Source: Jiella endophytica
GTDB taxonomy: Bacteria; Pseudomonadota; Alphaproteobacteria; Rhizobiales; Rhizobiaceae
Direction: 5' to 3'
NCBI RefSeq assembly: GCF_004519335.1
Contig: NZ_SOZD01000001.1
Location: forward strand, 248,001 to 312,000
DNA length: 64,000 nt
Below the pieces are notes generated by a model. It saw only the letters and a list, made by a program, of their open reading frames with translations, did not search any database and was not told the origin of the DNA. Shown one piece after another: positions 13,234-47,331 of the stretch. Every line of letters starts with the position of its first letter. Position 1 is the stretch's first letter. A program made the position numbers and the translations under genes.

Positions 13234-13322
13234 GAGCGTGCCTCCTCTCCCTTTCGGCGATCCCGAAACCGCGACCGGAGACGTCGGCGGCGGGACCAAC
13301 CTTTGCCCGTTATATGAATTAC

Positions 13323-14322: not shown

Positions 14323-14623
14323 TACAAAATTCCACTTTTGCCCCGAGACTCAGGTCAGCTTGCCGGAAGGCGAGCCCCGAGTCCCTACCTAGAGGAATAT
14401 CGATCCAATTGCGGCTCTTCAAAGACAAATTTGTAACAAGGGGTAAATCCGGCTCCAGCTTCAAGCCGGCTTCCCGTTCTAATCCCTAACGAGCCGTAAG
14501 TGGGACAGGCAGTGTCCTCACGGAGGAAAGATGGTGCGGGACGGAGCGGTTCCAAGTCGAATCGTCGCGCGATCCAGGGCGTGGGGCGGACCCACAGGCC
14601 GTGCGAACCGGGAAGAGCTTTAG
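14323..14623. other. Divergent intergenic region, MerR gene / PodJ-like gene
   Basis: 301 bp. It includes an AT-richer patch around 14416-14440 with a palindrome ACAAATTTGT, and a GGAAGAG ribosome site upstream of the ATG at 14624. No gene is seen. It presumably holds both promoters. Confidence 0.4.

Positions 14624-28870: not shown

Positions 28871-28873
<3 letters not shown>
28812..28873. repeat. Decayed copy 3 of the composite palindromic repeat
   Basis: It aligns by eye to the right half of copy 1: ACGATGCGGCGATTCGGTAGC here, against ACGATGCGGTGAATCG...ATAGC, then AAATGGACGCAGGGCGCGCTA against TATTGGACGCACGGCGCGCTA. The hairpin is no longer perfect. As in the other two copies, its terminal CTA (minus-strand TAG) is the stop codon of the adjacent gene. 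Confidence 0.6.
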
Positions 28874-29632
<759 letters not shown>

Positions 29633-29647
29633 TCAAGTGGTTGATTG

Positions 29648-30826
29648 TCAGGCGTCGGCGTCGATGACGGCCAGCGCCGCCTCGATGCCCCTGCCGACTG
29701 CGAGATCCTTGCCGAGCGCCTTGATGGCGCCCCCGAGGGCAGTCAGCGCCGCGACCGCATGGATCGGCTGGGCGGTCGGCCCCATATGGCCGATGCGCGT
29801 CAGCTTCCCGAGCGTCTCGCCGCGCCCTGCCGAAAACACCACGCCGTAGCGGGCGCGCGCGGCCTGCCGGATCGCGGCCTCGTCGATCCCGTCGGGCGTG
29901 CGAACGGCTGTCGTCGTCGGCGAGGCGATCGCGTCGCTTGCGGCCCAGAGGGAAAGGCCCATGGCGGTGACGCCGGCTCGCATGGCTCTCGCCGTCAGTG
30001 CGTGGCGGGCCCAGACGGCCTCCGGTCCTTCGCCGAGATAGAGGTCGAGTGCGACGTCGAGCCCGTTGATCTCGGCGACCGACGGCGTGAACGGAAAGGG
30101 CTCGTCGCGCGACCAGGCATGTTCCCAGTCGACAATGCTCAGCATCGAGGCGCGCGGCGCCTCGTCATTGGCTTTCATCTTCGCCCAAGCACGGTCGCTG
30201 ACGCCCATCAGAGTGAGACCGGGCGGCGCGCCCAGGCATTTGTTGGGGCCGGTGACATACATGTCGGCGCTGCAGTCCTCCGGATGGGTCTTCATGCCGC
30301 CGAAGGAGGACACCGCGTCGACGATCAGATAGGCGCCATGGGCCGAGACCAGGCTACCGATGGCGTCGATGGGATTGATGGTGCCCGACGGCGTGTCGTG
30401 ATGGCAGACACAGACGATCGTGATCTCGGGATGCGCCTTCAGCATCCCGGCGACCGCCTGCGGGTCGATCGCCTCGTTGTAGGGCACTTCGATTTCGATG
30501 AGATGGGGCGAATAGCGCTTCGCCCAATAGCCGAACCCCTTGCCGTAGACGCCGGAGACGAGATTGAGGACGACGTCGCCCGGCGTAATCAGCGAAGCGG
30601 CCGCCGCCTCGAGGCCGAGCACCGGCTCGCCATGCAGGATCACCGGCCGGGTCGACAGACGCATCGCCTTCTGCGCCTTGCCGACAACCGTTTCGTAGAG
30701 GAGCTGGAAGGTCGGATCGTAGTCGTAGAGCACGGTTCGGCCGAGGCCGCGCAGCACGTCCGGATAGGCGTCGACCGGACCAGCGGTCAGCGTCAGGACC
30801 GGATTGGCGTGATCGGAATAACGCAT
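29648..30826 (-). CDS. ppat: Pyridoxamine--pyruvate transaminase
   Basis: Converts pyridoxamine plus pyruvate to pyridoxal plus L-alanine. 392 residues, a fold-type I (class V-like) aminotransferase. The active-site lysine is K196 in VTGPNKCLGAPPG, and the Asp that holds the pyridine ring is D170 in LIVDAVSS. Unlike ordinary transaminases, this family uses the lysine to hold the substrate pyridoxal rather than a PLP cofactor. Sequence from TLTAGPVDAYPDVLRGLGRT onward is very close to M. loti PPAT. It sits between the dehydrogenase and lactonase genes with short gaps, consistent with one operon. Confidence 0.95.
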   Translation of the reverse strand: MRYSDHANPVLTLTAGPVDAYPDVLRGLGRTVLYDYDPTFQLLYETVVGKAQKAMRLSTRPVILHGEPVLGLEAAAASLITPGDVVLNLVSGVYGKGFGYWAKRYSPHLIEIEVPYNEAIDPQAVAGMLKAHPEITIVCVCHHDTPSGTINPIDAIGSLVSAHGAYLIVDAVSSFGGMKTHPEDCSADMYVTGPNKCLGAPPGLTLMGVSDRAWAKMKANDEAPRASMLSIVDWEHAWSRDEPFPFTPSVAEINGLDVALDLYLGEGPEAVWARHALTARAMRAGVTAMGLSLWAASDAIASPTTTAVRTPDGIDEAAIRQAARARYGVVFSAGRGETLGKLTRIGHMGPTAQPIHAVAALTALGGAIKALGKDLAVGRGIEAALAVIDADA

Positions 30827-30850: not shown

Positions 30851-31657
<807 letters not shown>

Positions 31658-31705: not shown

Positions 31706-32641
31706 TCAGCGCGCCCCGCGCTCATAGGGGATGCCCAGTGCCGCCGGCAGGCTGGCCTGGCGGCCGAACAGCACCAGCATGATCATCACCGCCAGGAACG
31801 GGAGCATCTGGATGACGTCGGTCGGGATGTTGATGCCGGCCACCTGCATGGCCGTCGTCAGCGACAGGCACGCGCCGAACAGGAGGGCGCCGAACAGGAC
31901 CCAGACCGGACGCCCTCGTGCCAGCATTGCCAGCACGATGCCGAGGAAGCCGGCGCCGTTGGTGATGAAGGGGATGAACAGGCCGGCCCCGACATTGGCG
32001 AGATAGGCGCCGCCGAGCCCGGCAAGAGCGCCGGTGGTCAAGACGGCGATGGTTCGGGTGCGGATCACGTCGATGCCGGCGACATCCAGCGCGGCCGGCT
32101 TGTCGCCGGCGGCCTGCAGGTTGAGGCCGAGCTGCGTGCGCCGGTAGAGATAGCTCATGACGACGACGAGCAGCACCGCCAGATAGACGAGCAGGTGATG
32201 GCGAAAGAAGGCCGGGCCGATGACGGGAATGTCCGCCAGAAGCGGAATGACGGTCGGATCGGCCGCCGGCAGGCGAGGGTAGCTTCGGGAGAACTGGAAG
32301 TGGTGCAGCAGCGCCGTCAGGCCCTCGAGGCCGAGTGTCAGGGCGATGCCGATGACGATCTGGTTCAGGCCGAGGCGCACGCATAGAAGCGCCATCAGAG
32401 CCGCCACCGCAGCGCCGCCGGCCGCACCGGTCAGGAAGCCGAGCCACAGCGATTCCGAATAGAAGGCGCCGACGAAGCCGAGATAGGCGCCGGCCAGCAT
32501 CATCCCTTCGATGCCGATGTTGAGGACGCCGGCCTTTTCCGACATCTGTTCGCCGAGGCCGGCGAGCAGCAGCGGCACGGCCGCGGTGACGGCACCGAAG
32601 AGCAGCGCGCTGAGAAAGACCTCGCTGAAGAGCCCGTTCAT
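31706..32641 (-). CDS. ABC transporter permease (BMP/nucleoside-type, second permease)
   Basis: 311 residues, about eight hydrophobic segments. It belongs to the BPD_transp_2 family (RbsC/NupQ-like), with NIGIEGMMLAGAY near the N-terminus and the G-L-N-L-x-A-x-G-x-x-x-x-A-A signature as LGLNLQAAGDKPAALDVAGI. It starts 3 bp after the preceding permease stop. With the other permease, the duplicated ATPase and the BMP-type binding protein it forms a complete importer of the PnrA/nucleoside class, here embedded in the B6 catabolic operon. Substrate is inferred to be a B6 vitamer or related compound. Confidence 0.9.
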   Translation of the reverse strand: MNGLFSEVFLSALLFGAVTAAVPLLLAGLGEQMSEKAGVLNIGIEGMMLAGAYLGFVGAFYSESLWLGFLTGAAGGAAVAALMALLCVRLGLNQIVIGIALTLGLEGLTALLHHFQFSRSYPRLPAADPTVIPLLADIPVIGPAFFRHHLLVYLAVLLVVVMSYLYRRTQLGLNLQAAGDKPAALDVAGIDVIRTRTIAVLTTGALAGLGGAYLANVGAGLFIPFITNGAGFLGIVLAMLARGRPVWVLFGALLFGACLSLTTAMQVAGINIPTDVIQMLPFLAVMIMLVLFGRQASLPAALGIPYERGAR

Positions 32642-32644
32642 CGC

Positions 32645-33742
32645 TCAGGCCTTTCTCGACTGGTTGTAGCGATGGTCGACATATTCGGCGATCGCGAGCA
32701 CGATCAGCACGATGGCGATGAGCACCAGCGTGAAGTGATTGGGCACGCCCATGCGCCTCGCCGCGCTCTCGCCGCCGATCGACAGCACCGACAGCAGAAA
32801 CACGAAGCCGATGGCGGCGAAGCCGTTCATGCGGGCAAGGAAGACGGCCGGGATGACCGCCAGGCCATAGGCGGGGTTCCAGTCGGCGCGGACATTGCCC
32901 TGGACGCCGACGACATCGACGGCGCCCGCAAGGCCCACGAGGCCCGCGGAGATCGCGAAGACGGCGATCGTCAGGCCAGGCACGCTCAGCCCCGCATGAA
33001 CGGCCGCGCGGGGATTGGCCCCGACGATCCGGAGTTTCAGCCCGAACGCGGTTCGGGTCATCACCAGATGGACGATGACGATGGCAGCGATGCCGAGCAA
33101 AAGGCCGCTGGTAACGGTGGTGTCGAAAAGGCGCGGCAGGCGTTCCTCGACCGGCAGCGTCCGGGTCTGCGGCACGGTGGTGCCGGGGTCGCGGAAGATC
33201 AGCTTGACCAGGACATTGGCGAGCGAGGTGCCGAGGAAGGTCATCATCAGCGTGGTGACGATCTCGTTCACCCCGTGATAGGCCCGCAGCAGCGCCGGCA
33301 CGAGCGACCAGGCGGCCGCGACGACGGTAGCGATGACGAATGCGCAGATCCAGGCCAGCCAGACCGGCATGATCTCGACCAGGACGGGCGCGCTCGCGGC
33401 AGACGTGACCGCGCCGAGCAGGAACTGGCCGTCGCCGCCGAGATTCCACATGCCGGCGCGAAAGGCGACGATCAGGCCGGCCGCAAGGAACAGAAGCGGC
33501 GCCATCCGCGTCAGCGTCTGCTGGATGCCCAGCATCGAGAGGAGGCCTCTTTCCAGGACGTAGCCGTAATAGGCGAGGGGATCGACGCCGACGGCCAGCA
33601 GGATGCAGCCTGCAATGACGAGGGCGACGACGATCGGCCCGAGCGTCATTAGAAGCCGGTGCAGGACGTCGCGGCGATTGGCCGCTGCGCTGGTGGCGTC
33701 GAGCGCGGTGGCGCTTGCCGTGCTTGCGCCGTCGATGCTCAT
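32645..33742 (-). CDS. ABC transporter permease (BMP/nucleoside-type, first permease)
   Basis: 365 residues, multiple membrane helices. BPD_transp_2 family with the FRAGMWNLGGDGQFLLGAV and FGLKLRIVGANPRAAVHAG signatures. The ATG at 33742 overlaps the stop of the ATPase gene (ATGA, 33739-33742), a sign of translational coupling; the longer open frame upstream is a shadow. It is paired with the permease at 31706-32641, as usual for nucleoside-type importers, which use two different permeases. Confidence 0.9.
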   Translation of the reverse strand: MSIDGASTASATALDATSAAANRRDVLHRLLMTLGPIVVALVIAGCILLAVGVDPLAYYGYVLERGLLSMLGIQQTLTRMAPLLFLAAGLIVAFRAGMWNLGGDGQFLLGAVTSAASAPVLVEIMPVWLAWICAFVIATVVAAAWSLVPALLRAYHGVNEIVTTLMMTFLGTSLANVLVKLIFRDPGTTVPQTRTLPVEERLPRLFDTTVTSGLLLGIAAIVIVHLVMTRTAFGLKLRIVGANPRAAVHAGLSVPGLTIAVFAISAGLVGLAGAVDVVGVQGNVRADWNPAYGLAVIPAVFLARMNGFAAIGFVFLLSVLSIGGESAARRMGVPNHFTLVLIAIVLIVLAIAEYVDHRYNQSRKA

Positions 33743-35307
33743 GCCGCCAGTCCAATCATCAGGCGCCCCACCTTGGTGCGGGCGTCGTCGACATTGTCGA
33801 CCGTGCCGACGAGGGCGCCGTCGGCGATCACCGCGATGCGGTCGCACATGGAGAGCAGTTCCTCGAGGTCGGTCGAGATGAGGAGCACGGCAAGGCCGCG
33901 TGCGGCGGTGTCGCGAATGCGCTGGCGCGAGGCCAGCGTGTTGGCGAGGTCGAGCCCGTAGGTCGGCTTGTTGAAGATCACCACCTTCGCGCCCTCGGCG
34001 AGTTCCCGCGCCAGGAGAACCTTCTGGATATTGCCGCCCGACAGCCGGGCAATCGGTGTCCGCAGACTCGGCGTCCTGACGTCGTATTCGCGCACGAGGT
34101 CGGCCGCGCGCTTGTCGATCTCGCCACGCCGCTCGAGCCCGCCGCGCCAGAGGGGCGCTTGGCCGACCTGCTTGAGAAAGAAGTTGATGGAGACCGGGAA
34201 GGTGCCGACGGTCCCTTCGCCCAGCCGGTCGTCGGTCAGGTAACGCAGTCCGCGCCTGCGGCGCTCCCCGACGCTCAGCGCTGCGACGTCGGTGCCTTCG
34301 AGCCGGATCGAGCCGCCGGCAGCCACGCGCTGGCCGGCCAGCGCCTCCGCGAGCTGTTTCTGGCCGTTGCCGTCGATGCCGGCGATCCCCAGAATTTCGC
34401 CCGGTCGGATATCGAAGGAGATCGACGAGAGACCGGGCTCGTTGTCGGTCGCTGCGACGGTCAGATCCGTCACCTGAAGCGATGGTGCGATCCCTGTCCG
34501 CGTGGCGCCGACCGGGCGCTCCTTAGTGTCGCTCTCGTCATTTTGCCTGCCGAACATCAACGCGACGATCTCGGCGATGATCTCCTCTTCGCCGAGGGAG
34601 CGAAACCGTTCGGGAGGGATCTCGCCGACCTTGCGGCCAAGTTTCAGCACCGAGATGCGATCGCCGAACGCCACCGCTTCCTTCAGCTTGTGGGTGATGA
34701 AGACGATCGCCAGCCCCTTTTCGACGAGGCGGCGCATCAGCGCTCCCAACTCGTCGATGCCCTTCGGCGTCAGCATCGAGGTGGATTCGTCGAGGATCAG
34801 AAGGCGGCTGTTGCGCAACAGCGCACGCAGGATCTCGACCTGCTGCTGCTCGCCGAGCGAGAGTTCGGCGACCCGCGCCTGCAGCTTGACGCTGATGCCG
34901 AGGCTGCGGGTGATCTCGGCAACGTGCGCCTCCAGTTCGCCGGTTCTCGGACGCTGCCACCAGGGGCCGCCGAGAGCCAGGTTTTCCGCCACCGTCAGCG
35001 TCGGCACCAGCATCATGTGCTGGAACACCGTGCCGATGCCGAGGGCCAGTGCGTGGCGCGGCGAAGTGATCGGCACCGGTCTGCCGTCGACCAGTATGCG
35101 CCCTTCGTCCGGTTGCTGGAGGCCGGAGAGCATGCCGATCAGCGTGGATTTTCCAGCGCCGTTCTCGCCCAGGAGCACATGCACCTCGCCCGGCCGGATC
35201 GACAGGTCGATGGCGTCATTGGCGACGATGCCCGGAAATCGCTTGGTCACGCCTTCCAGCGCGACGATGTCCCGCGCCTCGGCGGACGGTGATGCACGAC
35301 TGCTCAT
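33739..35307 (-). CDS. ABC transporter ATP-binding protein, duplicated ATPase (BMP/nucleoside-type)
   Basis: 522 residues with two fused ABC domains. The first has Walker A GENGAGKSTL and signature LSLGEQQQVEI with Walker B LLILDEST. The second has a degenerate Walker A (GIDGNGQKQLAEAL) and signature LSGGNIQKVLLARE, followed by FNKPTYGLD in place of a normal Walker B. One degenerate site is typical for RbsA/MglA/NupO-type ATPases. It energises the two permeases downstream. Confidence 0.93.
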   Translation of the reverse strand: MSSRASPSAEARDIVALEGVTKRFPGIVANDAIDLSIRPGEVHVLLGENGAGKSTLIGMLSGLQQPDEGRILVDGRPVPITSPRHALALGIGTVFQHMMLVPTLTVAENLALGGPWWQRPRTGELEAHVAEITRSLGISVKLQARVAELSLGEQQQVEILRALLRNSRLLILDESTSMLTPKGIDELGALMRRLVEKGLAIVFITHKLKEAVAFGDRISVLKLGRKVGEIPPERFRSLGEEEIIAEIVALMFGRQNDESDTKERPVGATRTGIAPSLQVTDLTVAATDNEPGLSSISFDIRPGEILGIAGIDGNGQKQLAEALAGQRVAAGGSIRLEGTDVAALSVGERRRRGLRYLTDDRLGEGTVGTFPVSINFFLKQVGQAPLWRGGLERRGEIDKRAADLVREYDVRTPSLRTPIARLSGGNIQKVLLARELAEGAKVVIFNKPTYGLDLANTLASRQRIRDTAARGLAVLLISTDLEELLSMCDRIAVIADGALVGTVDNVDDARTKVGRLMIGLAA

Positions 35308-35335
35308 GAAAGCCGATCCCTGAGAAGCGGGGATG

Positions 35336-35364
35336 CCCAGAGGGGTGTCTCTTGCCCCTCTGGG
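35336..35364 (-). terminator. Intercistronic hairpin after the BMP-type binding-protein gene
   Basis: CCCAGAGGGG and CCCCTCTGGG (10-bp perfect stem, 9-nt loop) lie between the binding-protein stop (35382) and the ATPase start (35307), read on the minus strand. No long U-run follows. The position fits a stabiliser or partial terminator that raises binding-protein mRNA over the membrane components. Confidence 0.65.
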
Positions 35365-35381
35365 GGTTTGCCGCGCCCGCC

Positions 35382-36407
35382 TTACTGGGCGACGCTCGTC
35401 ATCAGCGCCCTGACGGCGGTAGCGTCGTAGACCGGCTCGACCTTGATCTTGCCGGACACGATATCCTCCCGCAGGGCCTCAATTTGCGACCAGACATCGT
35501 CGGGGATCGCCGGCGTCTTCAAAAGCTCGACGGAGTTGTCCTTGAGGCCGATGGCGTAGTGCTTGGTGCCGAAGGTGTCGTTCTTGATGTCGGCGATCAT
35601 CGCCGCGTAGACCGGCTCGATGTTCCAAACCACCGACGACAGCAGGAAGCCCTTGTCGATCGGTGACTTGTCGCCGATCACGTCGATGAAATAGACCTTG
35701 CCGCCATCGGCCGCCTTGGTGGTCTCGACCGCCTGCAGCATGCCGAAACTCGACCCGTTGCCCTGGCCGAAGATGATGTCGGCGCCCGACGCGATGACGC
35801 TCTCGGTGACGCGCTTGCCGCCGGCCGCGTCGCTGTAGGCGGCCGGGCCGATCACCGCATAGATGATCTTGACGTCCGGGTTCTCGGCCTTCACGCCCTG
35901 CGCGAACGCCCCCGACTGCGAGTTCCACGAGGGCGGCTCGCCCGACACGACGACGCCGACCGTCTTGGAGCGCGACATCTTGGCAGCGAGGCGACCGGCG
36001 AGATAGGCGCCTTCGTGGCCACTCAGCGTGTAGTCGGCCACCAGACCCTTTTCCAGGCCGTTCGGCGTGTCGACGATGGCCACGGGGACGTTCATTTCCT
36101 TGGCGATTTCGGGCGCCGCGGTGTTGTAGCCGCTGGCATGGGCAATCAGCAGGCTGGCGCCGTCGGAGGCCAGCTCCCGCAGGGTCGGGCGAACGTCGCC
36201 GTAACCAAGGCCCTGGGCCACCACGACCTCGACGCCGGCAGCCTCGCCAGCCGCCTTGGCGGCATCGATCCCCTGCTGGTTCCAGCCGTAATCGGTGCCT
36301 TCTTCCGGCGTCAGGATCGCGATCGACTTCACCTCTCCGGCAAGAGCACTGCCAAGCAGAAGACTGCTGATGACAAATGCACTGCCGATGCTTTTTATTA
36401 TCTTCAT
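35382..36407 (-). CDS. BMP-family ABC transporter substrate-binding protein (candidate B6 vitamer binder)
   Basis: 341 residues with a signal peptide (residues 1-23, MKIIKSIGSAFVISSLLLGS then ALA), so periplasmic. It has the BMP/PnrA fold: a D-Y-G-W-N-Q-Q-G segment early, then the S-K-T-V-G-V-V-V-S-G-E strand and D-V-I-G-D-K near the C-terminal half. The family binds purine nucleosides in known cases. It is the first gene of a minus-strand operon that ends in ppat and pldh, so a pyridine-type ligand is plausible. ATG at 36407 follows GAGGG by 9 nt. Confidence 0.88.
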   Translation of the reverse strand: MKIIKSIGSAFVISSLLLGSALAGEVKSIAILTPEEGTDYGWNQQGIDAAKAAGEAAGVEVVVAQGLGYGDVRPTLRELASDGASLLIAHASGYNTAAPEIAKEMNVPVAIVDTPNGLEKGLVADYTLSGHEGAYLAGRLAAKMSRSKTVGVVVSGEPPSWNSQSGAFAQGVKAENPDVKIIYAVIGPAAYSDAAGGKRVTESVIASGADIIFGQGNGSSFGMLQAVETTKAADGGKVYFIDVIGDKSPIDKGFLLSSVVWNIEPVYAAMIADIKNDTFGTKHYAIGLKDNSVELLKTPAIPDDVWSQIEALREDIVSGKIKVEPVYDATAVRALMTSVAQ

Positions 36408-36507: not shown

Positions 36508-36933
36508 ATGAAGATTGGTCATATTCTCCCGGCGATGCTGGCGTGTGCATCCCTCGCCAATGCGGTCGAGCTGCACCCTGTCGACGTGCGCAGAGGCACC
36601 GAGGGGCTCGACAAAGTGCCGTTGACGATTGCCAACGCGGCCGAGGCTGCGGTTTCCTGCAACGCCGATTTCGCCCATTGGTACTCGGCAAGGCTCGCGA
36701 CGGTTGAGCCGGGCGAGAGCGCGCGCCTCGAGCTCTGGTTCGATCCGAAGACGGGCACCTTCACTGTGCTCAACGACAAGCGCGAGAACCTGCCCGTCGA
36801 GCGGCTGTGGTGCGGTCTGTCGGGGCGCGCGTATGAAACCCGCGCGCAGATCGCGCTCGGCCGCGAAGCCGCGGCCAGCGGCTCGCGCGCCGTGTCCTGC
36901 CGGATGGGGCAGGACAGGCTTGCCTGCCGGTAG
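36508..36933 (+). CDS. Small secreted protein of unknown function
   Basis: 141 residues. An N-terminal signal peptide (residues 1-19, MKIGHILPAMLACASLANA) is followed by a domain of about 120 residues with four or more cysteines (SCNADFAHWYS, RLWCGLSG, AVSCRMGQDRLACR) that could form disulfides. I do not recognise a family. It is divergent from the BMP-type transporter operon and convergent with the NMT1-type transporter, the only plus-strand gene inside the B6 catabolic block. Confidence 0.65.
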   Translation: MKIGHILPAMLACASLANAVELHPVDVRRGTEGLDKVPLTIANAAEAAVSCNADFAHWYSARLATVEPGESARLELWFDPKTGTFTVLNDKRENLPVERLWCGLSGRAYETRAQIALGREAAASGSRAVSCRMGQDRLACR

Positions 36934-36969: not shown

Positions 36970-37980
36970 TTATTGCTTTGCCAGGAACTTGTCGGTGAAG
37001 ACATCGTCCGCCGACGGGGTCGTCTTGAGAACGCCCTGGTCGGTGAGCGTCTTCAGCGTCGCCTCCCACTGGGTCTTCGTCATCCAGCCGAGGCCGTGCT
37101 CCTTGGTGTCTTCGCTGGTGAAGGTCGAGGCGATGTCGGCCTTGATCTGCGCCAGGAGGACGTCCTTCTTGTCGGCATAGCCGGGGACGTCCTTGGCGGT
37201 GATCTCGGCAGCTTCCTCGGGATGCGCGACGACGTAGTCGAAGGCTTCCCGATAGGCCTCCGTGAAGCGGGCGACGAGGTCGGGCTTCTCGTTGACCATC
37301 TCCTGTGAGGTGAAGAGGCCCGAGCCATAGGCCTTCCAGCCGTAGTCCGAGCCCATCATGATCGACAGCGAGCCGGGACCGCCTGCCTTGGCCTCGAGTT
37401 CGGGCACCTCGGCGTCGACATATCCGGGGACGGTCTGGACCCGGCCGAGCAGCAGGTAGCTCTCATAGGGCGGCGAGACGCTGTTCAGCGTCATGTCCTT
37501 TTCGGTCAGGCCGTTTGCCGCCAGAAAGCCCCGGAAGAAGATGTAGGTCGAACCGGCCGGATGGATGCCGACGCTCAGCCCCTTGAGGTCGTCCGGCTTG
37601 CTCAGCTTCACCGTCTTGGCCAGCGAGATCATCGCCAGCGGCGAGTGCTGGTTGACGGCGGCAATCGCCACCACCGGCACCTCCTGCGAGCGCGCGACGG
37701 CCAGCGTCGGGAGATCGCCGAAGCCGAAATCGGCATTGCCGTTGCCCACGAGCCGCATGGCATCGGGCGAGCCGGAGCCCTTGCGGATCTCGGCGACTTC
37801 GATGCCGTGCTTTTCGAAGAAGCCCTTTTCCTTGCCGACGAAGAACATGGCGTGGTTGCCGCGCACGACCCAGTCGAGCTGCACGTTGACCTTGTCCGCT
37901 GCCAGCGCGGCGCCGGAGAAGCCAAGCGTGCCGACGAGCGCGGCGGCGGCGGTCGCCATGAGGAGGGAGCGTCTTAACAT
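36970..37980 (-). CDS. NMT1/THI5-like ABC transporter substrate-binding protein
   Basis: 336 residues with a signal peptide (MLRRSLLMATAAAALVGTLG to AALA, about 28 residues). The mature start VNVQLDWVVRGNHAMFFVGKEKGFFEKHGIEV is the NMT1/THI5 signature. That family binds thiamine pyrimidine precursors, formylaminopyrimidines, riboflavin (RibY) or similar heterocycles. It is the last gene of an ATPase-permease-binding protein operon inside the B6 block. A pyridine ligand (pyridoxine, 4-pyridoxate) is the natural hypothesis. ATG at 37980 is the start; longer upstream frame is shadow. Confidence 0.88.
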   Translation of the reverse strand: MLRRSLLMATAAAALVGTLGFSGAALAADKVNVQLDWVVRGNHAMFFVGKEKGFFEKHGIEVAEIRKGSGSPDAMRLVGNGNADFGFGDLPTLAVARSQEVPVVAIAAVNQHSPLAMISLAKTVKLSKPDDLKGLSVGIHPAGSTYIFFRGFLAANGLTEKDMTLNSVSPPYESYLLLGRVQTVPGYVDAEVPELEAKAGGPGSLSIMMGSDYGWKAYGSGLFTSQEMVNEKPDLVARFTEAYREAFDYVVAHPEEAAEITAKDVPGYADKKDVLLAQIKADIASTFTSEDTKEHGLGWMTKTQWEATLKTLTDQGVLKTTPSADDVFTDKFLAKQ

Positions 37981-38015
37981 CTCTTTTGTCCTTGTGGTTG
38001 GGTTCGTTGGAAGGC

Positions 38016-38831
38016 TCAGGCCCGGCTGAATTTCGGCGCCCAGGGCACCACGACGCGCTCGAGGATTTCGGCGGCGTAGTAGAAGACGATGCCGAGGACG
38101 GAGACGAGCAGGAGCGCCGCGAAGACCTGCGCCGTATCGAGCTGGGTCGATGCGAACTGGATGACGTAGCCAAGCCCGTCCTGGGCACCGGCGAACTCGC
38201 CGACGATCGCGCCGATGACACTCAGCGTGGCGGCGATCTTGGTCCCCGCCATCAATTGCGGGAGCGAGTGGGGGACACGGATCCGGAAGAGGATCTGGCT
38301 CTGGCTGGCGCCGACCGAATTCATCAGGGACAAAAGGGAGCGATCGACCGACTGCATTCCGGCCAGCATCGACAGCGTCACCGGGAAGAAGGCGATGACC
38401 AGGATCAGGCCGATCTTCGGGGCAAGGCCGTAGCCGAACCAGAGGATGAAGATCGGCGCCAGCGCCACCTTCGGCACGTTCTGGAACAGGACCACTAGCG
38501 GGTAGAGCGCACGCCCCAGCCAGTCGAAGCGCACGATGACCAGCGCGATGGCGATCCCGACCGCGACCGAGACGATGAAGCCGAAGAGGATTTCGCCTGC
38601 CGTCACCAGCGTCGCCTGCATCAGCGACGGCCACTGGTCGATCAGCGACCGGGCGATCGCGGTGGGGGCGGGAACGATGAAGGCGGAAATGTCGAAGATC
38701 CGCACGGCCGCTTCCCACGCGACGACCGTCGCGACGAGAAGGATGATCGCCGGGAGCCAGCGGTCGTTCGCGGCGACCAGGATCGGCGTCAGCCGCGATT
38801 CAGCGGCGGTGTTGAGGGACTGATCGCTCAC
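38016..38831 (-). CDS. ABC transporter permease (SsuC/ThiX-like)
   Basis: 271 residues, about six membrane helices. BPD_transp_1 family with the EAA-type loop (SLMNSVGASQSQILFRIRVPHSLPQLMAG). This permease type serves NMT1/THI5, taurine and alkanesulfonate importers. Its ATG overlaps the stop of the ATPase gene by 4 bp, and 35 bp separate it from the binding-protein gene. Confidence 0.92.
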   Translation of the reverse strand: MSDQSLNTAAESRLTPILVAANDRWLPAIILLVATVVAWEAAVRIFDISAFIVPAPTAIARSLIDQWPSLMQATLVTAGEILFGFIVSVAVGIAIALVIVRFDWLGRALYPLVVLFQNVPKVALAPIFILWFGYGLAPKIGLILVIAFFPVTLSMLAGMQSVDRSLLSLMNSVGASQSQILFRIRVPHSLPQLMAGTKIAATLSVIGAIVGEFAGAQDGLGYVIQFASTQLDTAQVFAALLLVSVLGIVFYYAAEILERVVVPWAPKFSRA

Positions 38832-39676
38832 GACGACGCTCCTGGCTGATGGCTCTCGCGCAGCATCGTTCGCAGCTGGACCACCAGCCTGACGAACTCC
38901 GGCTCCTCGGTGAGCGAGAGGTCGCGCGGATAGGGCAGATCGATGTCGAGGCTCTCGGTGATCCGCCCCGGCTTGATCCCGAGGACATGGACGTGGCGGG
39001 ACAGATGGATCGCCTCGTCGATGGAGTGGGTGACGAGCACGATCGTCTTGCCGGTGCGCTGCCAGATATCCAGCAGCGACTGGCCCATGGAATCTCTCGT
39101 GATGGCGTCGAGCGCACCGAACGGCTCGTCCATCAGGAGCACCGCCGGATCGAGCGCCAGGGCCCGGGCGATCGCAACGCGCTGGCGCATGCCGCCGGAG
39201 AGTTCATGCGGCTGCTTGTGGGCGCTGTCCCCCAGGCCGACCAGTTCCAGCATCTCCTGCCCGCGCGCCCGCAACTCGGCGCGCGAGAGCGACCTGTCGG
39301 CGATGGAGAGCAGCATCGAGGCGTTGTCGACCGCGTTCTTCCAGGGAAGTAGGTTGGCCTCCTGAAAGACCAGCCCGATCATGCGCTTGCGGGCGGCCTC
39401 GACGGGAGGGAGACCGGCGATCGAAACGCTTCCTTCCGTCGGCTGCAGGAGCCCGGCCATAAGCTTCAGGAGCGTGCTCTTGCCGCAGCCGGATGGCCCG
39501 ATCAGGGAGACGAAGGAGCCCTTCGGCACGGAAAGGTCGATGTTCTGCAGGATCAATTGTCTCGACAGGACGAGCGATACGCCCTTCGCGGAGATCAGAG
39601 CGTCGTCATGCCGGACCGTTGTCGGCCGCGTTTCGGCCGCTCGAATGGTGTCTATACGCATGGCTGACTGCCTCAT
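38828..39676 (-). CDS. ABC transporter ATP-binding protein (SsuB/ThiZ-like)
   Basis: 282 residues, one ABC domain. Walker A is GPSGCGKSTLL, the signature LSGGMRQRVAIARAL, Walker B VLLMDEPFGALD, with a switch His in LVTHSIDEA. It is the energising subunit for the SsuC-like permease and NMT1-like binding protein. Starts at 39676 and 39661 are both in frame and both have purine-rich upstream sequence. The gene lies about 115 bp after the FHMPC dehydrogenase gene on the same strand, so it may be read from the same transcript. Confidence 0.92.
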   Translation of the reverse strand: MRQSAMRIDTIRAAETRPTTVRHDDALISAKGVSLVLSRQLILQNIDLSVPKGSFVSLIGPSGCGKSTLLKLMAGLLQPTEGSVSIAGLPPVEAARKRMIGLVFQEANLLPWKNAVDNASMLLSIADRSLSRAELRARGQEMLELVGLGDSAHKQPHELSGGMRQRVAIARALALDPAVLLMDEPFGALDAITRDSMGQSLLDIWQRTGKTIVLVTHSIDEAIHLSRHVHVLGIKPGRITESLDIDLPYPRDLSLTEEPEFVRLVVQLRTMLRESHQPGASS

Positions 39677-39790: not shown

Positions 39791-40720
39791 CTAATCCTTG
39801 CCCTCGAGGATGCGCCGCACGGCGACGAGCTTCTTCGCCCGTTCGCCCTGCAGCGCCTTCGTCTTTTCCGGTTTATAGGAAAATATTCCCTCGCCCGACT
39901 TGATGCCGAATTTCGACGCGTCGGTCTTTTCCAGAACCATTTGCGCGACATCGGCGCGATTGGAGAGATCGGCGTTGAGGAAGGACGAAACGGATTTGTA
40001 GATGTCGAGGCCGGCCATATCGAGCAGCGCCATCGGCCCCACGACGGCGATCTTGTAGCCGATGCCCCAGGACACGCAGGTGTCGAGATCCTCCGGCTCG
40101 ATGACGCCGCGCTCCACGAGGTCGACCGCCTCGCGGAGGAGGGCGTAGAGCACCCGGTTCTCGACGAAGCCCGGCACGTCCTTCTTGACGACCACCGGCA
40201 ACAGGCCGATCGAACGGATCAGCTCGCGGATCGTCGCGACGGTCTCGGGGGCGGTCTCGGCGCCGCCGATCACCTCGATCATCGGGATGATGTGCGGCGG
40301 GTTCGACCAATGCATGCCGACCATGCGCCGGGGATGCGAGATATGCGCCTGCAGCTTGGTGATCGGAATGCCCGACGTATCGGATGCGACGATCGTCTCC
40401 GGCGCGATCAGCCCGTCGATGGTGCGGTAGACTTCGGCCTTGATCGCGATGTCCTCGGGGACGTTCTCGATGACGAGATCGGCACCGGCGACCGCATCGG
40501 CGATGTCGTCGGTGAAGCACACCGAACCCGAGCCGTCCTGCGGCGCGGCGATGGCGAGATCGTCGAGCACGCTCTCGGCAATGCCGAGCATGGTCCGGGC
40601 CCGCTCGATCGCCGCGGGGGCGACGTCGTAGGCGACGACATCGAGGCCGCCGCGGGCGAGCCGGGCGGCCATGCCCGGTCCCATCGTGCCGAGGCCGATG
40701 ATGGCGATATGCCGGATCAT
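39791..40720 (-). CDS. 5-Formyl-3-hydroxy-2-methylpyridine-4-carboxylate (FHMPC) dehydrogenase
   Basis: NAD-dependent oxidation of the 5-aldehyde to 3-hydroxy-2-methylpyridine-4,5-dicarboxylate. 309 residues. The Rossmann motif G-L-G-T-M-G (9-14) and the overall fold are those of 3-hydroxyacyl-CoA dehydrogenases ([19 protein letters not shown]). It is an aldehyde dehydrogenase without the usual catalytic cysteine, a known peculiarity of the M. loti enzyme, which it closely resembles. ATG at 40720 overlaps the stop of the 4-pyridoxate dehydrogenase gene (ATGA), so the longer frame upstream is not used. Confidence 0.93.
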
Positions 40721-42345
40721 GCCGCGAGCTCCCTTTCCTTCGACGCAGCGATCATGTCGGCTGCCTTCTCGGCAATCATGATCACTGCCGCGTTGATGTT
40801 GCCGCAGACGAGGTCCGGCATGACCGACGCGTCCACCACGCGCAGGCCGTCGACGCCGCGCAGCCGCAACTGCGGATCGACGACGGAGTCGGCGTCGGCT
40901 CCCATCCGGCAGGTTCCGGCCGGATGATGCACGGTGATGGAGGTCCGGCGGATGTGCTCGTCGATCTCCTCGTCGCTCTCGCAGTTTGAGCCGGGAAAGA
41001 ACTCCGCTTCGATGAAGGGCTGCATGGACGGCTGCGCCGCGAGATCCCTCGCCACCCGGAAGCCGGCGCGCAGCGATTGCCAGTCCTTCGGCGAGGCGAG
41101 GAAGTTCTGATGGATCAGCGGTGCGGCCAGGGGATCGGCAGACGCGAGCTTCACCGTCCCGCGGCTTTCCGGCTGCGTCGCGACGACCCGCGTCGCAAAA
41201 CCGTCCGGGAACGGCTCCTTGAAGGGAGCGAAATAGGGCCATGCGGCGAGCGGCGCGGCAGTGAAAAGCAACTGCACGTCGGGCAGCGGCCGCTCCGGAC
41301 CGCTCTTCAGGAAGGCGACGACGCCGCCCGGCACGTCGCCCGAGAAGCCGCGGCCGGTGAGATAGGTCCTGGCGAAGTCGAGGCCGATCCGGTCCGCCCG
41401 CATCATTTTGCGGAATGGCCCGGGTGTCCGGCGCCGGTACATGAGAATGACCGAGACGTGGTCCTGCAGGTTCTTGCCGACCGCCGGACGGTCGACCTTC
41501 GTCTCGATGCCCTGGGCCGCCAGTTCCTCACGAGCGCCAATACCGGACAGCATCAGGAGTTGCGGCGTGTTGATGACGCCGCCGGCGAGCAGCACTTCCT
41601 TTCGGGCCGAGACCGTCTGCTCGGCGCCGGCATGACGGAGGACGACGCCGGTGGCGCGCCTGCCCTCGAGCATCACCTTCGTCGCGATGGCGTCCGTCAG
41701 GACGGTGAGGTTCGCCCGCTTCAGGGCCGGGCGCAGATAGGCCGAGGCGGTCGAAGCGCGCCGCCCGTTCGCAATGGTCATCTGGAGACGGCCGAACCCT
41801 TCCTGGTGCTCGGCATTGTAGTCGTCGGTCTGCGGATAGCCGGCCGCGACGCTGGCCTCGGCGAAGGCGTCGATCAGCGTGTCCTTGTAGCGGCAGAACT
41901 GGGTGCTGAGCGGCCCCGAACCGCCGCGCCATCGGCTCTCGCCGCCTTCCCAGGTCTCCTGCTTGCGGAAGTAGGGCAGGACCTTGTCGTAGGACCAGTC
42001 GGTCAGGCCGGAGGCCGCCCACCGCTCGTAGTCGCCGCGATTGCCGCGCACATAGGCCATGGCGTTGGTGGACGAGGATCCGCCGATGACCTTGCCGCGC
42101 GCGCACTCCACCTTGCGTCCGCCGACATTGTCCTCCGCTTCGCAGAAATACATCCAGTCGTGGCGGCGCTCGGTCAGGATCTTTCCCCATCCGAGCGGGA
42201 TGTGGATCATCGGATCGCGATCCCAGCCGCCGGCCTCGATGAGCAGCACCGATGATCGCGGATCCGCACTCAGCCGGTTGGCCAGCACGCAGCCGGCCGA
42301 TCCGGCACCAACGATGACATAATCGTAGCTTTGCGCATGCGGCAT
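40717..42345 (-). CDS. 4-Pyridoxate dehydrogenase (GMC oxidoreductase)
   Basis: Oxidises the 5-hydroxymethyl group of 4-pyridoxate to the aldehyde (FHMPC). 542 residues, FAD-binding GMC family: [17 protein letters not shown] near the N-terminus, [18 protein letters not shown] (GMC signature 1), a GALxSP-like segment ([17 protein letters not shown]), and the active-site pair H473-H474 in [12 protein letters not shown]. Choice of this pathway step over pyridoxine oxidase rests on adjacency to the FHMPC dehydrogenase and HMPDC decarboxylase genes, and on the other GMC gene at 47462 matching pyridoxine 4-oxidase better. ATG at 42345 is preferred over an upstream extension. Confidence 0.88.
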
Positions 42346-42445
42346 GGTGCGTTTCGCTGCCTTCGTCCGGTGCCCTTGTGCCAGGGAGATTTTCAAACTG
42401 AGCATGGATGTCCCGGCACTCGCCGGGCAGTCGAGGCGATCGACG

Positions 42446-43168
42446 CTAGAGCAGGCCAGCCTCTCTCAGACGTTGCGACCAGTGGTTCCAGCCACGGTCG
42501 ATCTGCGCGCCGACGAGCTTTCCAGCCGTCTTCACTTCGCCGGGCGTCAGGTAGTTGACCTTGCCGACCTGCAGGCCCGCAGTGAGCGCCTTCGCCTCCT
42601 GCTCGAGATAGTAGGCGCGGAAGACGACCTCGCGCACCGAGTTGCCGACATTGACGACGCCGTGGCGCGCCATCAGCACCACGGTGCTGTCGCCGAGGCT
42701 CGTCGCGATGTCGGCGCAGACGTCGGTGCTGCCACCGAAGAGATCCGTCGCGTCGCCATGCTTGTCGCGGATCTCGTAGACCGGCACGGTTTCACCCATG
42801 AAGGCGCCCATGTGGGTGACCGGTCGCAGCGGCGTGTCGACGAAGCAGTAGGGCAGGACGGCGGGCGAATGGGTGTGCAGCACGCACTGCACATCCGGCC
42901 TCGCCTTGTAGATCTCGCTATGAATGTACCGCTCGAGGTAGGACGGGCGGTTGTCCGTCGTCTCGCCGTCGAGGGTCAGACGCTGGATGTCGTCGACGGT
43001 GACCAGCGCCGGCGCGAGTTTCTGCGGCAGGAAGAACCCGTCCGGATTTTCCGGATCGCGGGCGCTGATATGCCCGAACACATCCATGACGCCTTCATGC
43101 AGAAGGATCTTCGTTGCCGTAACGAGTTCCTCGAAGATCATGCTGCGAACGGATTGGCTTTCCGACAT
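42446..43168 (-). CDS. 3-Hydroxy-2-methylpyridine-4,5-dicarboxylate 4-decarboxylase
   Basis: Removes the 4-carboxyl group to yield 2-methyl-3-hydroxypyridine-5-carboxylate. 240 residues, class II aldolase/adducin fold. Metal ligands are visible as H98 and H100 (VLHTHSPAV) and H169 ([11 protein letters not shown]), with a nearby acid E79. General tools would call it a class II aldolase; context and resemblance to the M. loti protein give the specific function. ATG at 43168 is the start; the PEBP-family gene lies 14 bp upstream. Confidence 0.92.
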
Positions 43169-43182
43169 TTGAACTACTCCCG

Positions 43183-43692
43183 TTACCCGGCGCCTGCGAT
43201 CGGTCGGCTGTCGCCGTCGACCGCGCTGGCGTGGCAAACGTTTTCGTAAAGACCGACGATGCGGTTCTGCTCGATGATGTTGCCGGCGTATTTCTGCAGG
43301 AACTCTTCGCGCGTCGGGGTGCCCTCGACCGCGGTGTCGAGCGCATAGACCCAGAAGTAGTAGTGATGCTTGCCATGGCCGGCCGGCGGCTGCGGTCCAT
43401 AATACTGCTTGTCGCCGGCGCCGTTCGGCCCCACCCGGAACTTCTCCTGGGCATCCGAGAGGTCGGTCGTCGCCGGATCGATGCCGTAGACCGTCCAGTG
43501 GGTGAAACCGTTCGCCAGCGGCGCATCCGGATCGTGACAGATCACCGCAAGCTCTGTGGCTTCTTTCGGCACGCCGCTGACCGTCAATTGCGGCAGGACG
43601 TTGCCCTTGTCGCCGGCATGCTCGTCGCGCAGGTCGCCGAGCGGCTGGAAGTCGGCCGACGTGATCTTGAGGTCTTTGATGTTCAGGGGCAT
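43183..43692 (-). CDS. YbhB/YbcL (PEBP, Raf-kinase-inhibitor-like) family protein
   Basis: 169 residues. The phosphatidylethanolamine-binding protein motifs are clear: D-P-D-A-P ([23 protein letters not shown]), G-P-x-P-P-x-G ([23 protein letters not shown]). No signal peptide, so likely cytoplasmic. It has no assigned step in the known B6 pathway, yet it is packed 14 bp from the decarboxylase gene in the same operon. It may bind a pathway intermediate, or it may be a passenger. Confidence 0.88.
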
Positions 43693-44377: not shown

Positions 44378-45517
44378 CTATTGCGGCCACGAATAGACGC
44401 GGCGCAGCGGATCGTAGCGGGCAGCCTCGAGGGCCGCCGGCGTGAACATGTTTCCCTTCGAGAGCGAACGGTTGGCGGCATAGTCGCCGGACAGGGCCTG
44501 GCAGCGATCGGTGATCGGCCGGATGCGCTTTTCCCAATCGACGATCGCGTCCTCGACCGACGAGGCGGTCTCTAGTTCCTGCGCCAGGCTGAAGGCATTG
44601 ACCATGGCGCAGCCCGCGCCCTGTGCGAGGGCCGGGCACATGGCGTGCGCTGCGTCGCCCACCAGGGCGACCTTGCCGCGCGTCCAGCTGTCCAGCCGCG
44701 TCGTCGCGTATCTGTCGTAGCGGGCGCTCTTCAGCTTGGCCGCTTCGACCAGGCAAGGTTCCAGAAACGGGAACATCTCGACCCACACTTCGAGATCGAG
44801 CGGCACCCGCGAGCCGCGCGGATCGGCGGCAGGCGCCATCAGGCCGAGATAGAGCTCGTCGTCGTTGCAGGGCGAGTAGAGGATCCGCTGCACCCGCGGC
44901 CAGAAGTTCCACATGTCGATGGTGTTGTCCCATTCGCCATGCCCGAGTTCCTGCTTCTTCCGCGGGACGATGAGCCTGATGATGCCGTCGGTGGAATCCC
45001 ACCGATCCTGCTCGAAGCCGATGGAATCGCGCACCTTGGAGCCGACTCCGTCCGCGCCGACGATCAGGTCGGCCTCGATCGTCTCCCCCGTCTGAAGGGT
45101 CAGCCGGCCCTCCGGGTCGGCGGAAACCGCCTCGGAATTGACGCGGATCTCGATGCCGAGCGCGCGGACGCGATTGGCCAGCGCGGTGTGCAGATGGCTG
45201 CGCGTCATGACGCGCCAGGGAAGGCCGTTGAAGGTTTCCTTGGAGACCGACTTGTTGTGCATCCAGGTCTCGTAGGTCGGCGGCGTGTGCGAGCCTTCGA
45301 GAACCTCTTCCAGCGCACCCAGCCCTTCGAGAACGCGCAAGCCGTTGTACCAGAGGTAGATTCCCGCGCCGAATGCCCTGAGTTCCGGCCCCTTTTCGTG
45401 CAGCGTCACATCCCAGCCGCTCTGCTTGAGCGCGATTGCCGCCGTCAGGCCAGCAAAGCCGCCGCCGGCAACCTCTGCGCGACGGGTTTTGCCTGATGTC
45501 ATGTTCACGTTGGGCAT
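44378..45517 (-). CDS. 2-Methyl-3-hydroxypyridine-5-carboxylate (MHPC) oxygenase
   Basis: Flavin monooxygenase that adds O2 and opens the pyridine ring to (E)-2-(acetamidomethylene)succinate using NAD(P)H. 379 residues. FAD motif G-G-G-F-A-G (18-23), the D-G motif as VGADGVGSKVRDSIG, and the G-D-A-A-H-A-M motif near residue 290. It is nearly identical in its motif regions to the structurally characterised M. loti MHPCO (also 379 residues), including the C-terminal YDPLRRVYSWPQ. This is the key ring-cleavage step. Confidence 0.95.
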   Translation of the reverse strand: MPNVNMTSGKTRRAEVAGGGFAGLTAAIALKQSGWDVTLHEKGPELRAFGAGIYLWYNGLRVLEGLGALEEVLEGSHTPPTYETWMHNKSVSKETFNGLPWRVMTRSHLHTALANRVRALGIEIRVNSEAVSADPEGRLTLQTGETIEADLIVGADGVGSKVRDSIGFEQDRWDSTDGIIRLIVPRKKQELGHGEWDNTIDMWNFWPRVQRILYSPCNDDELYLGLMAPAADPRGSRVPLDLEVWVEMFPFLEPCLVEAAKLKSARYDRYATTRLDSWTRGKVALVGDAAHAMCPALAQGAGCAMVNAFSLAQELETASSVEDAIVDWEKRIRPITDRCQALSGDYAANRSLSKGNMFTPAALEAARYDPLRRVYSWPQ

Positions 45518-45644: not shown

Positions 45645-46481
45645 TCACGCGTCGATGAAGTTCTGGATGGCTCTGAAGGTGATGTCCGGGGCGGTCTCGT
45701 TGACGTAATGGTCGGCGCCGGGCACGACGACCACGGGCAGGTCGGGCCGCAGGCGGCTGGTTTTCGCGAGCGCTGCGGCGGACACCAGCTTGCTGTCCTC
45801 GCCGCGGATGATCAGCACCGGCTTCTTCACGTCCCGGAAGGCAGGCACGAGATCGGCCCGAAGCCCGGTGCTGGTCTCGGCCATGGCAGCGGGCGAGGCG
45901 AGGGGGCGCAACCCACCATCGACGCGCTGGTAGCCGCTTTCGGCCCTGATCCTGATGGCATCGGCCGGAATGTTGGGATAGCGGCGGGAAAGATAGGTCT
46001 CGACGGCCGTCAGATCCTCGAAGACCTGGTCCCCCGCATTGACGCGCGAATCCAGGGCGTCGAACACTTCGGTCTCGATATAGGGGGTGAAGTCGATGGC
46101 AATCACCGAGCGGACCCGGTCGGGATGGGCGGCCGCCGCGGTGACCGAATTCCGCGAGCCGAGCGAGTGGCCGACGAGGATGGCCGGCCCCTTGTCCAGT
46201 TTGCGGACGAGCGCGGCGATGTCCTCGACAAAGTCGTCGGCCTCATAGCCGCTCGCCGGCTTGTCGCTGTGGCCGTGCCCTCTCTGGTCGACGGCCACGA
46301 CCGTGAAGCGATCGGAAAACCGGGCCATCATCGGGGTGAAGACGGCCCCGTTGGCGGTGATGCCGTGGAAGAACAGGATCAGCGGGCCGCTGCCGCCTTC
46401 GCGCACGTTCAGCACGATCCGGCCGATGTCGATGCGCCGCGAGCCGAAACGGTCGAAGGACCTGTCTGCCGCCATTCTCAT
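45645..46481 (-). CDS. (E)-2-(acetamidomethylene)succinate hydrolase
   Basis: Last pathway enzyme: hydrolyses the ring-opened product to succinic semialdehyde, acetate, ammonia and CO2. 278 residues, alpha/beta-hydrolase. The triad S106 (LVGHSLGSRN), D130 (AIDFTPY) and H258 (PGADHYVNE) falls at the same positions as in the M. loti enzyme. GAGG lies 6 nt upstream of the ATG at 46481. It is the first gene of the minus-strand catabolic operon and is divergent from the GntR regulator. Confidence 0.95.
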   Translation of the reverse strand: MRMAADRSFDRFGSRRIDIGRIVLNVREGGSGPLILFFHGITANGAVFTPMMARFSDRFTVVAVDQRGHGHSDKPASGYEADDFVEDIAALVRKLDKGPAILVGHSLGSRNSVTAAAAHPDRVRSVIAIDFTPYIETEVFDALDSRVNAGDQVFEDLTAVETYLSRRYPNIPADAIRIRAESGYQRVDGGLRPLASPAAMAETSTGLRADLVPAFRDVKKPVLIIRGEDSKLVSAAALAKTSRLRPDLPVVVVPGADHYVNETAPDITFRAIQNFIDA

Positions 46482-46659: not shown

Positions 46660-47331
46660 ATGCGGCCGGAAATGAATCTGCGGATTTCTCCGCGAACGGT
46701 GCAGCAAGAGACGGTCGGCAAGTTGCGGCTCGCGATCTTCTCCGGCGTTTTCCAGCCGGGAAGCCGCCTGGTCGAAAGCCAGTTATGTGCCCAGCTTGGC
46801 ATCAGCCGGCCCTCGTTACGGGAAGCCTTGCGCAGCCTGGAAGCCGAGCGCCTGATCGAGATCGTGCCCAATCGCGGCCCGTCGATACCGGCGCTTTCCT
46901 GGGAAGAGGCGACTGCCATCTACGAAGTCCGAGAACTGCTCGAGGTCGAGGCAGCGGGGCGCTGCGCCGCGAGAATCTTGCCGGAACAGGTGCAGGCGCT
47001 CGAGAAGTCCCTGGTTGCGTTCGAAGCGGCCGCCGCCAGCAACGACAGCGCCGCACAGGTGATGACGGCCGCCGACTTCTATTCGATCATCCTCGCCAAT
47101 TGCGGAAATGCGATCCTCGAGGAGGTCCATCGCGGCCTGCTCGCCAGGATCAGCTTCTTCCGGGGCCGGTCGATGTCGCTGAAGGGCAGGGCAGCCAGCA
47201 GCCTCGCGGAGATGAAGGATATCTACGAAGCCATCGCCGCGGGGGACGTGAAAGCCGCCCGCAAGGCGTCGAAGCGGCACCTTCTCAAGGCGAAGGCCGC
47301 GGCGAAGATTTCCATCGAAAGCGTGACCTGA
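46660..47331 (+). CDS. GntR-family (FCD) transcriptional regulator, probable B6-catabolism regulator
   Basis: 223 residues. N-terminal winged HTH (about residues 12-75: LRLAIFSGVFQPGSRLVESQLCAQLGISRPSLREALRSLEAERLI) and an all-helical FCD ligand-binding domain (about 85-210: EVRELLEVEAAGRCA, then helices with metal-site-type D/H residues). It is divergent from the long minus-strand catabolic operon and 130 bp upstream of pyridoxine 4-oxidase on its own strand. It is likely a repressor relieved by a B6 intermediate; the ligand is unknown. ATG at 46660 is chosen; the frame is open far upstream but overlaps the hydrolase gene. Confidence 0.88.
   Translation: MRPEMNLRISPRTVQQETVGKLRLAIFSGVFQPGSRLVESQLCAQLGISRPSLREALRSLEAERLIEIVPNRGPSIPALSWEEATAIYEVRELLEVEAAGRCAARILPEQVQALEKSLVAFEAAAASNDSAAQVMTAADFYSIILANCGNAILEEVHRGLLARISFFRGRSMSLKGRAASSLAEMKDIYEAIAAGDVKAARKASKRHLLKAKAAAKISIESVT

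Follow-up and report, generated by a model that had tools for sequence, protein, structure and literature searches.

What does an importer of the BMP type carry when its genes are followed directly by those of vitamin B6 enzymes? The question is raised by positions 31,706 to 36,407 of a 64,000-nucleotide stretch of Jiella endophytica DNA (contig NZ_SOZD01000001.1; this whole stretch is called the window below). BMP-type ATP-binding cassette (ABC) importers are best known for nucleosides, and B6 uptake ranks with the most poorly understood aspects of vitamin metabolism in bacteria. A first-pass annotation of the window had guessed that pyridoxine, pyridoxal or pyridoxamine was the cargo. This guess was supported as the best reading of the sequence data by the linkage of the importer with pyridoxamine-pyruvate aminotransferase (PPAT) and by a comparison of downstream routes. 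We consider it probable that the operon spanning 36407 to 28871 serves as the entry module of vitamin B6 degradation, its putative importer bringing in free B6 vitamers. The reading is based on class-wide co-occurrence and on the route comparison, with weaker help from pocket residues. The cargo prediction is not new, as it is already curated as putative in NCBIfam (NF047927-NF047930), and the novelty of the importer is therefore modest.

Open reading frames together with Pfam and NCBIfam matches bore out the complete importer that had been described, with one binding protein, one ATPase and two permeases. What had been called a duplicated ATPase is a single chain of 522 amino acids containing two ABC stretches, and the binding protein starts at the ATG at 36407, where it had been placed. 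The sole Pfam match of the binding protein is Bmp (PF02608). All four subunits scored above the curated cut-offs of the NCBIfam models NF047927-NF047930, named 'putative B6 ABC transporter', and we saw no difference from that family, whose function is itself putative. From 36407 to 28871 the minus strand carries, in order, the binding protein, ATPase, permease, permease, 4-pyridoxolactonase, PPAT and pyridoxal 4-dehydrogenase genes, with successive spacings of 74, -4, 3, 48, 24 and 30 bp, the largest lying between binding protein and ATPase. For the permease at 32645-33742 the list of open reading frames gives a GTG start at 33847, and the ATG at 33742 produces a 4-bp overlap with the stop of the ATPase gene. 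The tight junctions reported among the transport genes are thus found as this overlap and a 3-bp gap between the two permeases. The three enzyme genes, reported as lactonase, ppat and pldh directly downstream on the same strand, are indeed there, and their names hold by NCBIfam. From the common strand and the spacing we infer a single operon running from the binding protein to the pyridoxal dehydrogenase.

The closest relatives of the locus are mostly from Mesorhizobium, so that the host is related to this genus. Among the best 80 of 191 relatives, identity ranged from 74 to 91%, so that these loci do not represent independent events. All seven operon genes were present in each of the 71 loci with 7.5 kb or more of sequence on the downstream side of the binding protein; 70 of them kept the same order and one (L079) was permuted. 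With the seven genes together in 71 of 71 loci, their grouping is not a product of chance. On the other side, 74 of the 80 loci offered at least 9.5 kb upstream, and every one of these contained the FHMPC dehydrogenase gene, a GMC oxidoreductase gene and a gene for a small protein on the strand opposite to the binding protein.

We then turned to wider samples of 318 genomes of the class and 297 of the order, which have only the genome G000 in common and thus amount to 614 distinct genomes. The binding protein was found in 8 genomes of the class sample, seven times above the cut-off and once (G289) at 331.6 bits in a gene cut by a contig end. PPAT exceeded its cut-off in 7 genomes of this sample, lactonase was present in 5 and FHMPC dehydrogenase scored above 480 bits in 5 (3 of them above the cut-off of 500), these sets being nested. 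The order sample yielded 17 genomes with the binding protein, all of them with PPAT, which exceeded its cut-off in 22. Overall, PPAT accompanied the importer in 23 of 24 genomes and was found above its cut-off in 5 of the 590 others (Fisher p 7e-36, kinship ignored); the two occur together in 13 anonymous families. They are separated by 10 kb or less in 20 of the 23 cases, by 25 kb in G163 and by 249 kb in G361, and lie on separate contigs in G289. Lactonase was present in 14 of the 24 importer genomes, pyridoxal dehydrogenase in 13, MHPCO (2-methyl-3-hydroxypyridine-5-carboxylate oxygenase) above 700 bits in 5, and FHMPC dehydrogenase in 15, of which 12 exceeded the cut-off and three (G163, G289, G540) scored between 467 and 486 bits. 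PPAT is the most constant partner of the importer among the genes tested. Pyridoxamine is for this reason the vitamer tied most tightly to the importer, and it is more likely than not to be among the cargo.

Five genomes (G450, G366, G464, G435, G512) contained PPAT without the importer. In G366 and G464 the aminotransferase is 58-59% identical and adjoins an SBP_bac_5 importer. The locus of G450 looks like a decayed cluster: in this single-contig genome, which has no B6 importer, a PPAT gene whose product is 85% identical is flanked by a 119-residue fragment of lactonase (L124:10977-11336) and by a BMP importer of another kind. Matches below the cut-offs were treated as paralogues, namely the FHMPC dehydrogenase match of G022 (237.6 bits), the PPAT match of G035 (364.9 bits) and a further eight PPAT matches of lower score.

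The genes accompanying importer and PPAT fall into distinct downstream routes. The 4-pyridoxate route, recognised by FHMPC dehydrogenase, was present in 15 of the 24 importer genomes, five of which also have MHPCO. Near FHMPC dehydrogenase, 9 of the 10 genomes of this route without MHPCO (G071, G163, G165, G289, G332, G495, G523, G540 and G445) encode a cupin resembling gentisate dioxygenase (210.5 bits against the gentisate 1,2-dioxygenase model, cut-off 442.1); in the tenth, G434, the contig ends within the cluster and the accompanying glutathione S-transferase (GST) alone is visible. The same alternation was seen in the 74 close loci, 35 with MHPCO, 38 with the cupin together with LVIVD and GST genes, none with both and one (L070) with neither in view (presence scored at 40-60% identity, depending on the gene, and 35% coverage). 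In those 38 loci (for example L014:2245-5035 and L049:2237-5688) the cupin, LVIVD, RidA and GST genes stand in the slot otherwise filled by the trio of decarboxylase, MHPCO and alpha-(N-acetylaminomethylene)succinate (AAMS) hydrolase. In L049 the cupin itself spans 2237-3403. The cupin set is possibly a ring-opening route so far undescribed.

A second arrangement was found in six importer genomes (G402, G400, G580, G374, G327 and G469; loci L127-L130, L133 and L134), where importer and PPAT are joined by pyridoxine oxidase, close to the importer in all six, by the small divergent protein, by a monooxygenase of the HpaB type (its score against HpaB-1 is 217.7 bits, cut-off 480.2) and by amidases. 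In L128 the monooxygenase and the amidase are encoded at 11224-12840 and 13167-14912. These genomes gave no match for lactonase, pyridoxal dehydrogenase (in G374, G400 and G402 among 64 scored candidates) or MHPCO, and for FHMPC dehydrogenase at most a paralogue of 212 bits (G580). The HpaB and amidase set is a possible second undescribed ring-opening route. In one of the six loci, the stretch with pyridoxine oxidase and PPAT also contains the gene of a candidate B6 sensor, a MocR-type regulator with a GntR and an aminotransferase domain (L128:90-1466; NCBIfam matches to EhuR and PdxR below cut-off).

Because PPAT stays with the importer in 23 of 24 genomes while the later chemistry changes, the cargo is best sought at the head of the pathway. 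The HpaB genomes point the same way: they keep importer, PPAT and pyridoxine oxidase without the 4-pyridoxate enzymes, so that the common factor would be the vitamer and not a later product. It appears about evenly balanced whether B6 degradation clusters are modular in the full sense, in which vitamer importer and PPAT would be constant, whereas the second importer, of NMT1-type ABC or TRAP kind and serving 4-pyridoxate, and the ring-opening sets could be exchanged. Of these sets, HpaB with amidase would bypass 4-pyridoxate by opening the ring already in pyridoxal or a product close to it. We found no publication on the cupin or HpaB sets among the matches listed by our searches, which mostly did not cover subscription journals and give weak evidence of absence. 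These exchangeable sets are the more novel part, compared with the importer, and may surprise specialists; if they do act on B6, there would be at least two undescribed breakdown routes.

The predicted structure of the binding protein (pLDDT 89.8) has the Bmp domain and the two-lobed fold of BMP/PnrA-type receptors, and its nearest solved folds are PnrA (Foldseek 1.7e-20), Lbp, AtzT, BmpD and riboflavin-bound RfuA. The earlier remark that this class normally carries nucleosides is too narrow, as RfuA and AtzT show. In BmpA, Phe27 and Phe176 are the stacking partners of the base, and the ribose is contacted by Asp98, Asp225 and Lys242 (PMC13325309). When our protein was aligned to Lbp and pneumococcal PnrA with HMMER, W42, Y191, I244 and W261 stood opposite the Phe, Phe, Asp and Lys of the nucleoside receptors; the correspondence with BmpA numbering is derived from motif and spacing through these alignments. 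The stacking aromatics thus appear conservatively replaced, Trp42 and Tyr191 standing for Phe27 and Phe176, and the positions of the ribose contacts Asp225 and Lys242 are taken by Ile and Trp. Each of the four residues was invariant in 41 of 41 family members. Such a pocket makes a nucleoside less likely, but it is not a mark of B6 in particular.

In the mechanism that we propose, the binding protein would capture free (unphosphorylated) B6 vitamers in the periplasm, the pyridine ring being probably stacked between Trp42 and Tyr191, and the two permeases with the two-domain ATPase would bring the vitamer in. PPAT would convert pyridoxamine, and the nearby pyridoxine oxidase pyridoxine, into pyridoxal, from which the dehydrogenase and the lactonase would produce 4-pyridoxate to feed the lower pathway. 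Because the operon sits in a catabolic cluster, the importer of this organism most likely feeds B6 degradation and not cofactor salvage.

Several observations weigh against this assignment. In one genome, G159, PPAT is missing, and the importer is surrounded by molybdenum-hydroxylase, CoxE-like, amidohydrolase, lactonase-like, SMP-30/isochorismatase and TRAP genes. Two others, G037 and G263, carry the importer with PPAT and an adjacent amidase, all four of the catabolic enzymes looked for being absent. The number of candidates scored was limited for some genomes, and some absences of pathway enzymes, including pyridoxal dehydrogenase, refer to 64 candidates per genome. In the pocket, the Asp/Lys pair is also lost from three of four other BMP proteins (those of L122, L123 and L124; that of L121 keeps both residues), AtzT lacks the Lys too though it keeps the Asp, D113 seems to hold the place of the third ribose contact, Asp98, and the four residues sit among many invariant columns of the family. 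A simple scan revealed no promoter-like site upstream of the binding protein, and within the window no 10-mer (up to one mismatch) was common to this upstream region and two other intergenic regions, including the lower-pathway promoters. Terminator-like sites were as frequent as the shuffle mean. In loci of the Mesorhizobium type, a segment ahead of the binding protein gene seems to be conserved.

Part of these data would fit a different cargo, either a wider range of small nitrogen heterocycles or a conjugated B6 vitamer, for instance an amide, with free vitamers not the main substrate. Amidase genes adjoin the importer in G037 and G263 and lie near it in the six HpaB loci, the importer of G159 is paired with another cluster, heterocycle-related by appearance, and AtzT, a related protein, bears the name of an atrazine periplasmic binding protein. 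Such a cargo is nevertheless unlikely given the PPAT present in all importer genomes but one and the pyridoxine oxidase, which acts on a free vitamer and is encoded close to the importer in every one of the HpaB loci. Import of 4-pyridoxate, 4-pyridoxolactone or another later intermediate would be in keeping with the clustering of the importer with lactonase and lower pathway, observed in the window and in all 71 close loci. It is made very improbable by the 9 of 24 importer genomes in which lactonase, pyridoxal dehydrogenase and FHMPC dehydrogenase above 460 bits are all missing, and by G361, whose lower module lies apart from the BMP importer and has an NMT1-type importer attached. An ordinary nucleoside or nucleobase importer, present in the operon by coincidence, would have the fold and domain of PnrA, BmpD and Lbp, as this one does, but the linkage with PPAT across 13 families would be hard to account for. 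Two ribose contacts are moreover replaced, an argument with less force against a nucleobase, as AtzT-like proteins also partly lack them. We set nucleoside cargo aside as highly unlikely on the linkage and the pocket together, bearing in mind that the Asp/Lys pair is lost from other BMP proteins as well.

Free B6 vitamers thus being retained as the probable cargo of the BMP importer, 4-pyridoxate, which the first-pass annotation had included among the ligands to be tried on its binding protein, is better assigned to a second importer encoded at 36970-39661. This system mostly accompanies the 4-pyridoxate module, and the simplest reading of the sequences is that it may carry 4-pyridoxate. The comparison as a whole points to pyridoxamine as the first vitamer to consider and to 4-pyridoxate for the sister importer. 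Of the 74 close loci, 48 have an NMT1-type ABC system as second importer and 23 have a TRAP system; the two were never found together, and three loci (L053, L057, L081) have neither. Each type occurs with either ring-opening set (27 MHPCO with NMT1, 21 cupin with NMT1, 14 cupin with TRAP and 8 MHPCO with TRAP), and in L070, which has TRAP, no such set is in view. Carboxylates are a frequent cargo of TRAP systems. In G361 an NMT1-type importer and the classical lower module occupy contig C7 (L145, 100000-119900) and the BMP importer lies apart on C4; neither lactonase nor, among 64 of 98 candidates scored, pyridoxal dehydrogenase was detected in this genome. BLAST of the six HpaB loci (19-20 kb each) gave no match to an NMT1-type or TRAP binding protein. 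ThiY (3ix1) and THI5 are among the proteins of solved structure closest to the NMT1-type protein of the window; THI5 consumes pyridoxal phosphate. The start of this protein was set at 37980 by sequence alignment, and its predicted structure is poor (mean pLDDT 57.4). Two groups of genomes depart from the 4-pyridoxate rule: G071, G163 and G165 have the 4-pyridoxate route and neither importer type in the stretches read, and G037 and G263 are without that route yet have an SsuA-type ABC importer adjoining the BMP one.

The operon forms one end of a Mesorhizobium-type vitamin B6 degradation cluster extending from 28.9 to 49.0 kb of the window (Table 1).

Table 1. Features of the B6 cluster of the window, and the TRAP counterpart of the second importer
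Feature	Position	Strand	Supporting match
Pyridoxal 4-dehydrogenase, SDR type	28871..29617	-	NF047923, 420.2 bits (cut-off 325)
PPAT	29648..30826	-	NF046070, 653.7 bits (cut-off 600)
4-Pyridoxolactonase	30851..31657	-	NF047925, 490.4 bits (cut-off 325)
Permease, NCBIfam 'permease subunit 1'	31706..32641	-	PF02653; NF047928, 570.7 bits (cut-off 465)
Permease, NCBIfam 'permease subunit 2'	32645..33742	-	PF02653; NF047929, 563.6 bits (cut-off 400)
ATPase, two ABC domains in a single chain	33739..35307	-	PF00005, two stretches; NF047930, 837 bits (cut-off 670)
Periplasmic binding protein of BMP type, 341 aa, candidate receptor of free B6 vitamers	35382..36407	-	PF02608, 1.3e-33; NF047927, 506.6 bits (cut-off 400)
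Small conserved protein outside known families, encoded divergently to binding protein	36508..36933	+	no Pfam or NCBIfam match
NMT1-type binding protein of second importer, proposed 4-pyridoxate receptor	36970..37980	-	PF09084, 1.7e-41
Permease of second importer	38016..38831	-	PF00528
ATPase of second importer	38828..39661	-	closest NCBIfam models of nitrate/taurine types, below cut-off
FHMPC dehydrogenase, lower pathway	39791..40720	-	NF042925, 556.4 bits (cut-off 500)
GMC oxidoreductase	40717..42405	-	choline-dehydrogenase-like GMC family
Class II aldolase-like protein	42446..43237	-	PDB 2z7b 'Mlr6791 protein', E 2.8e-138
MHPCO, ring opening	44378..45517	-	PDB 3alj, E 3.6e-236
AAMS hydrolase	45645..46481	-	PDB 3kxp, E 4.4e-139
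GntR-family regulator, start estimated	46663..47331	+	TIGR03338, 120.3 bits, below cut-off
Pyridoxine 4-oxidase, start estimated	47462..49018	+	PDB 4ha6, E 2.8e-280
TRAP version of second importer	L049:6624-9474		

The window contains the upper and lower enzymes of pathway I of B6 degradation, with 4-pyridoxate dehydrogenase placed by position: the GMC oxidoreductase is presumably this enzyme, and the class II aldolase-like protein is presumably the decarboxylase. The Mesorhizobium loti pathway I cluster shares pyridoxine oxidase, PPAT, dehydrogenase, lactonase, FHMPC dehydrogenase, decarboxylase, MHPCO and AAMS hydrolase with the window; we found no difference in enzymes, and it is the two importers that lack an assigned function.

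Other known transport systems resemble the BMP importer in some respects. Its binding protein shares with the nucleoside receptors PnrA, BmpD and Lbp the fold, the Bmp domain and two stacking aromatics (here Trp and Tyr), but has Ile and Trp for their ribose-contacting Asp and Lys. The riboflavin receptor RfuA of Treponema (4iil) has the same fold and a vitamin cargo and so provides a precedent for vitamin transport by the BMP fold, although it is 18% identical and binds a different vitamin. ECF transporters work without a periplasmic binding protein. HmpT and PdxU, which are of this type, also take up free B6 vitamers, pyridoxamine in the case of HmpT (PMC9997740, PMC4860826). P5PAB of Actinobacillus is likewise an ABC importer for a B6 vitamer, with pyridoxal phosphate as cargo (PMC8427247). 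Its binding protein belongs to PF13531 according to Denise et al. 2023 (PMC9997740), whereas that of the window matches Bmp only and not PF13531. The same article counts no more than three characterised prokaryotic B6 transporters, with substrates verified for two.

Minor features of the cluster were also noted. An Rfam scan of the window gave a tRNA as the single match. The product of the small gene divergent from the binding protein has a start that resembles a signal peptide by eye, and the gene is also kept in the six HpaB loci. A YbhB/Raf-kinase-inhibitor-like protein (43183-43692) and a PF06684 'amino acid synthesis' protein (43724-44314) accompany the classical lower pathway, as judged by a comparison of neighbours that left out L001 and L002 and counted only matches of more than 40% coverage.

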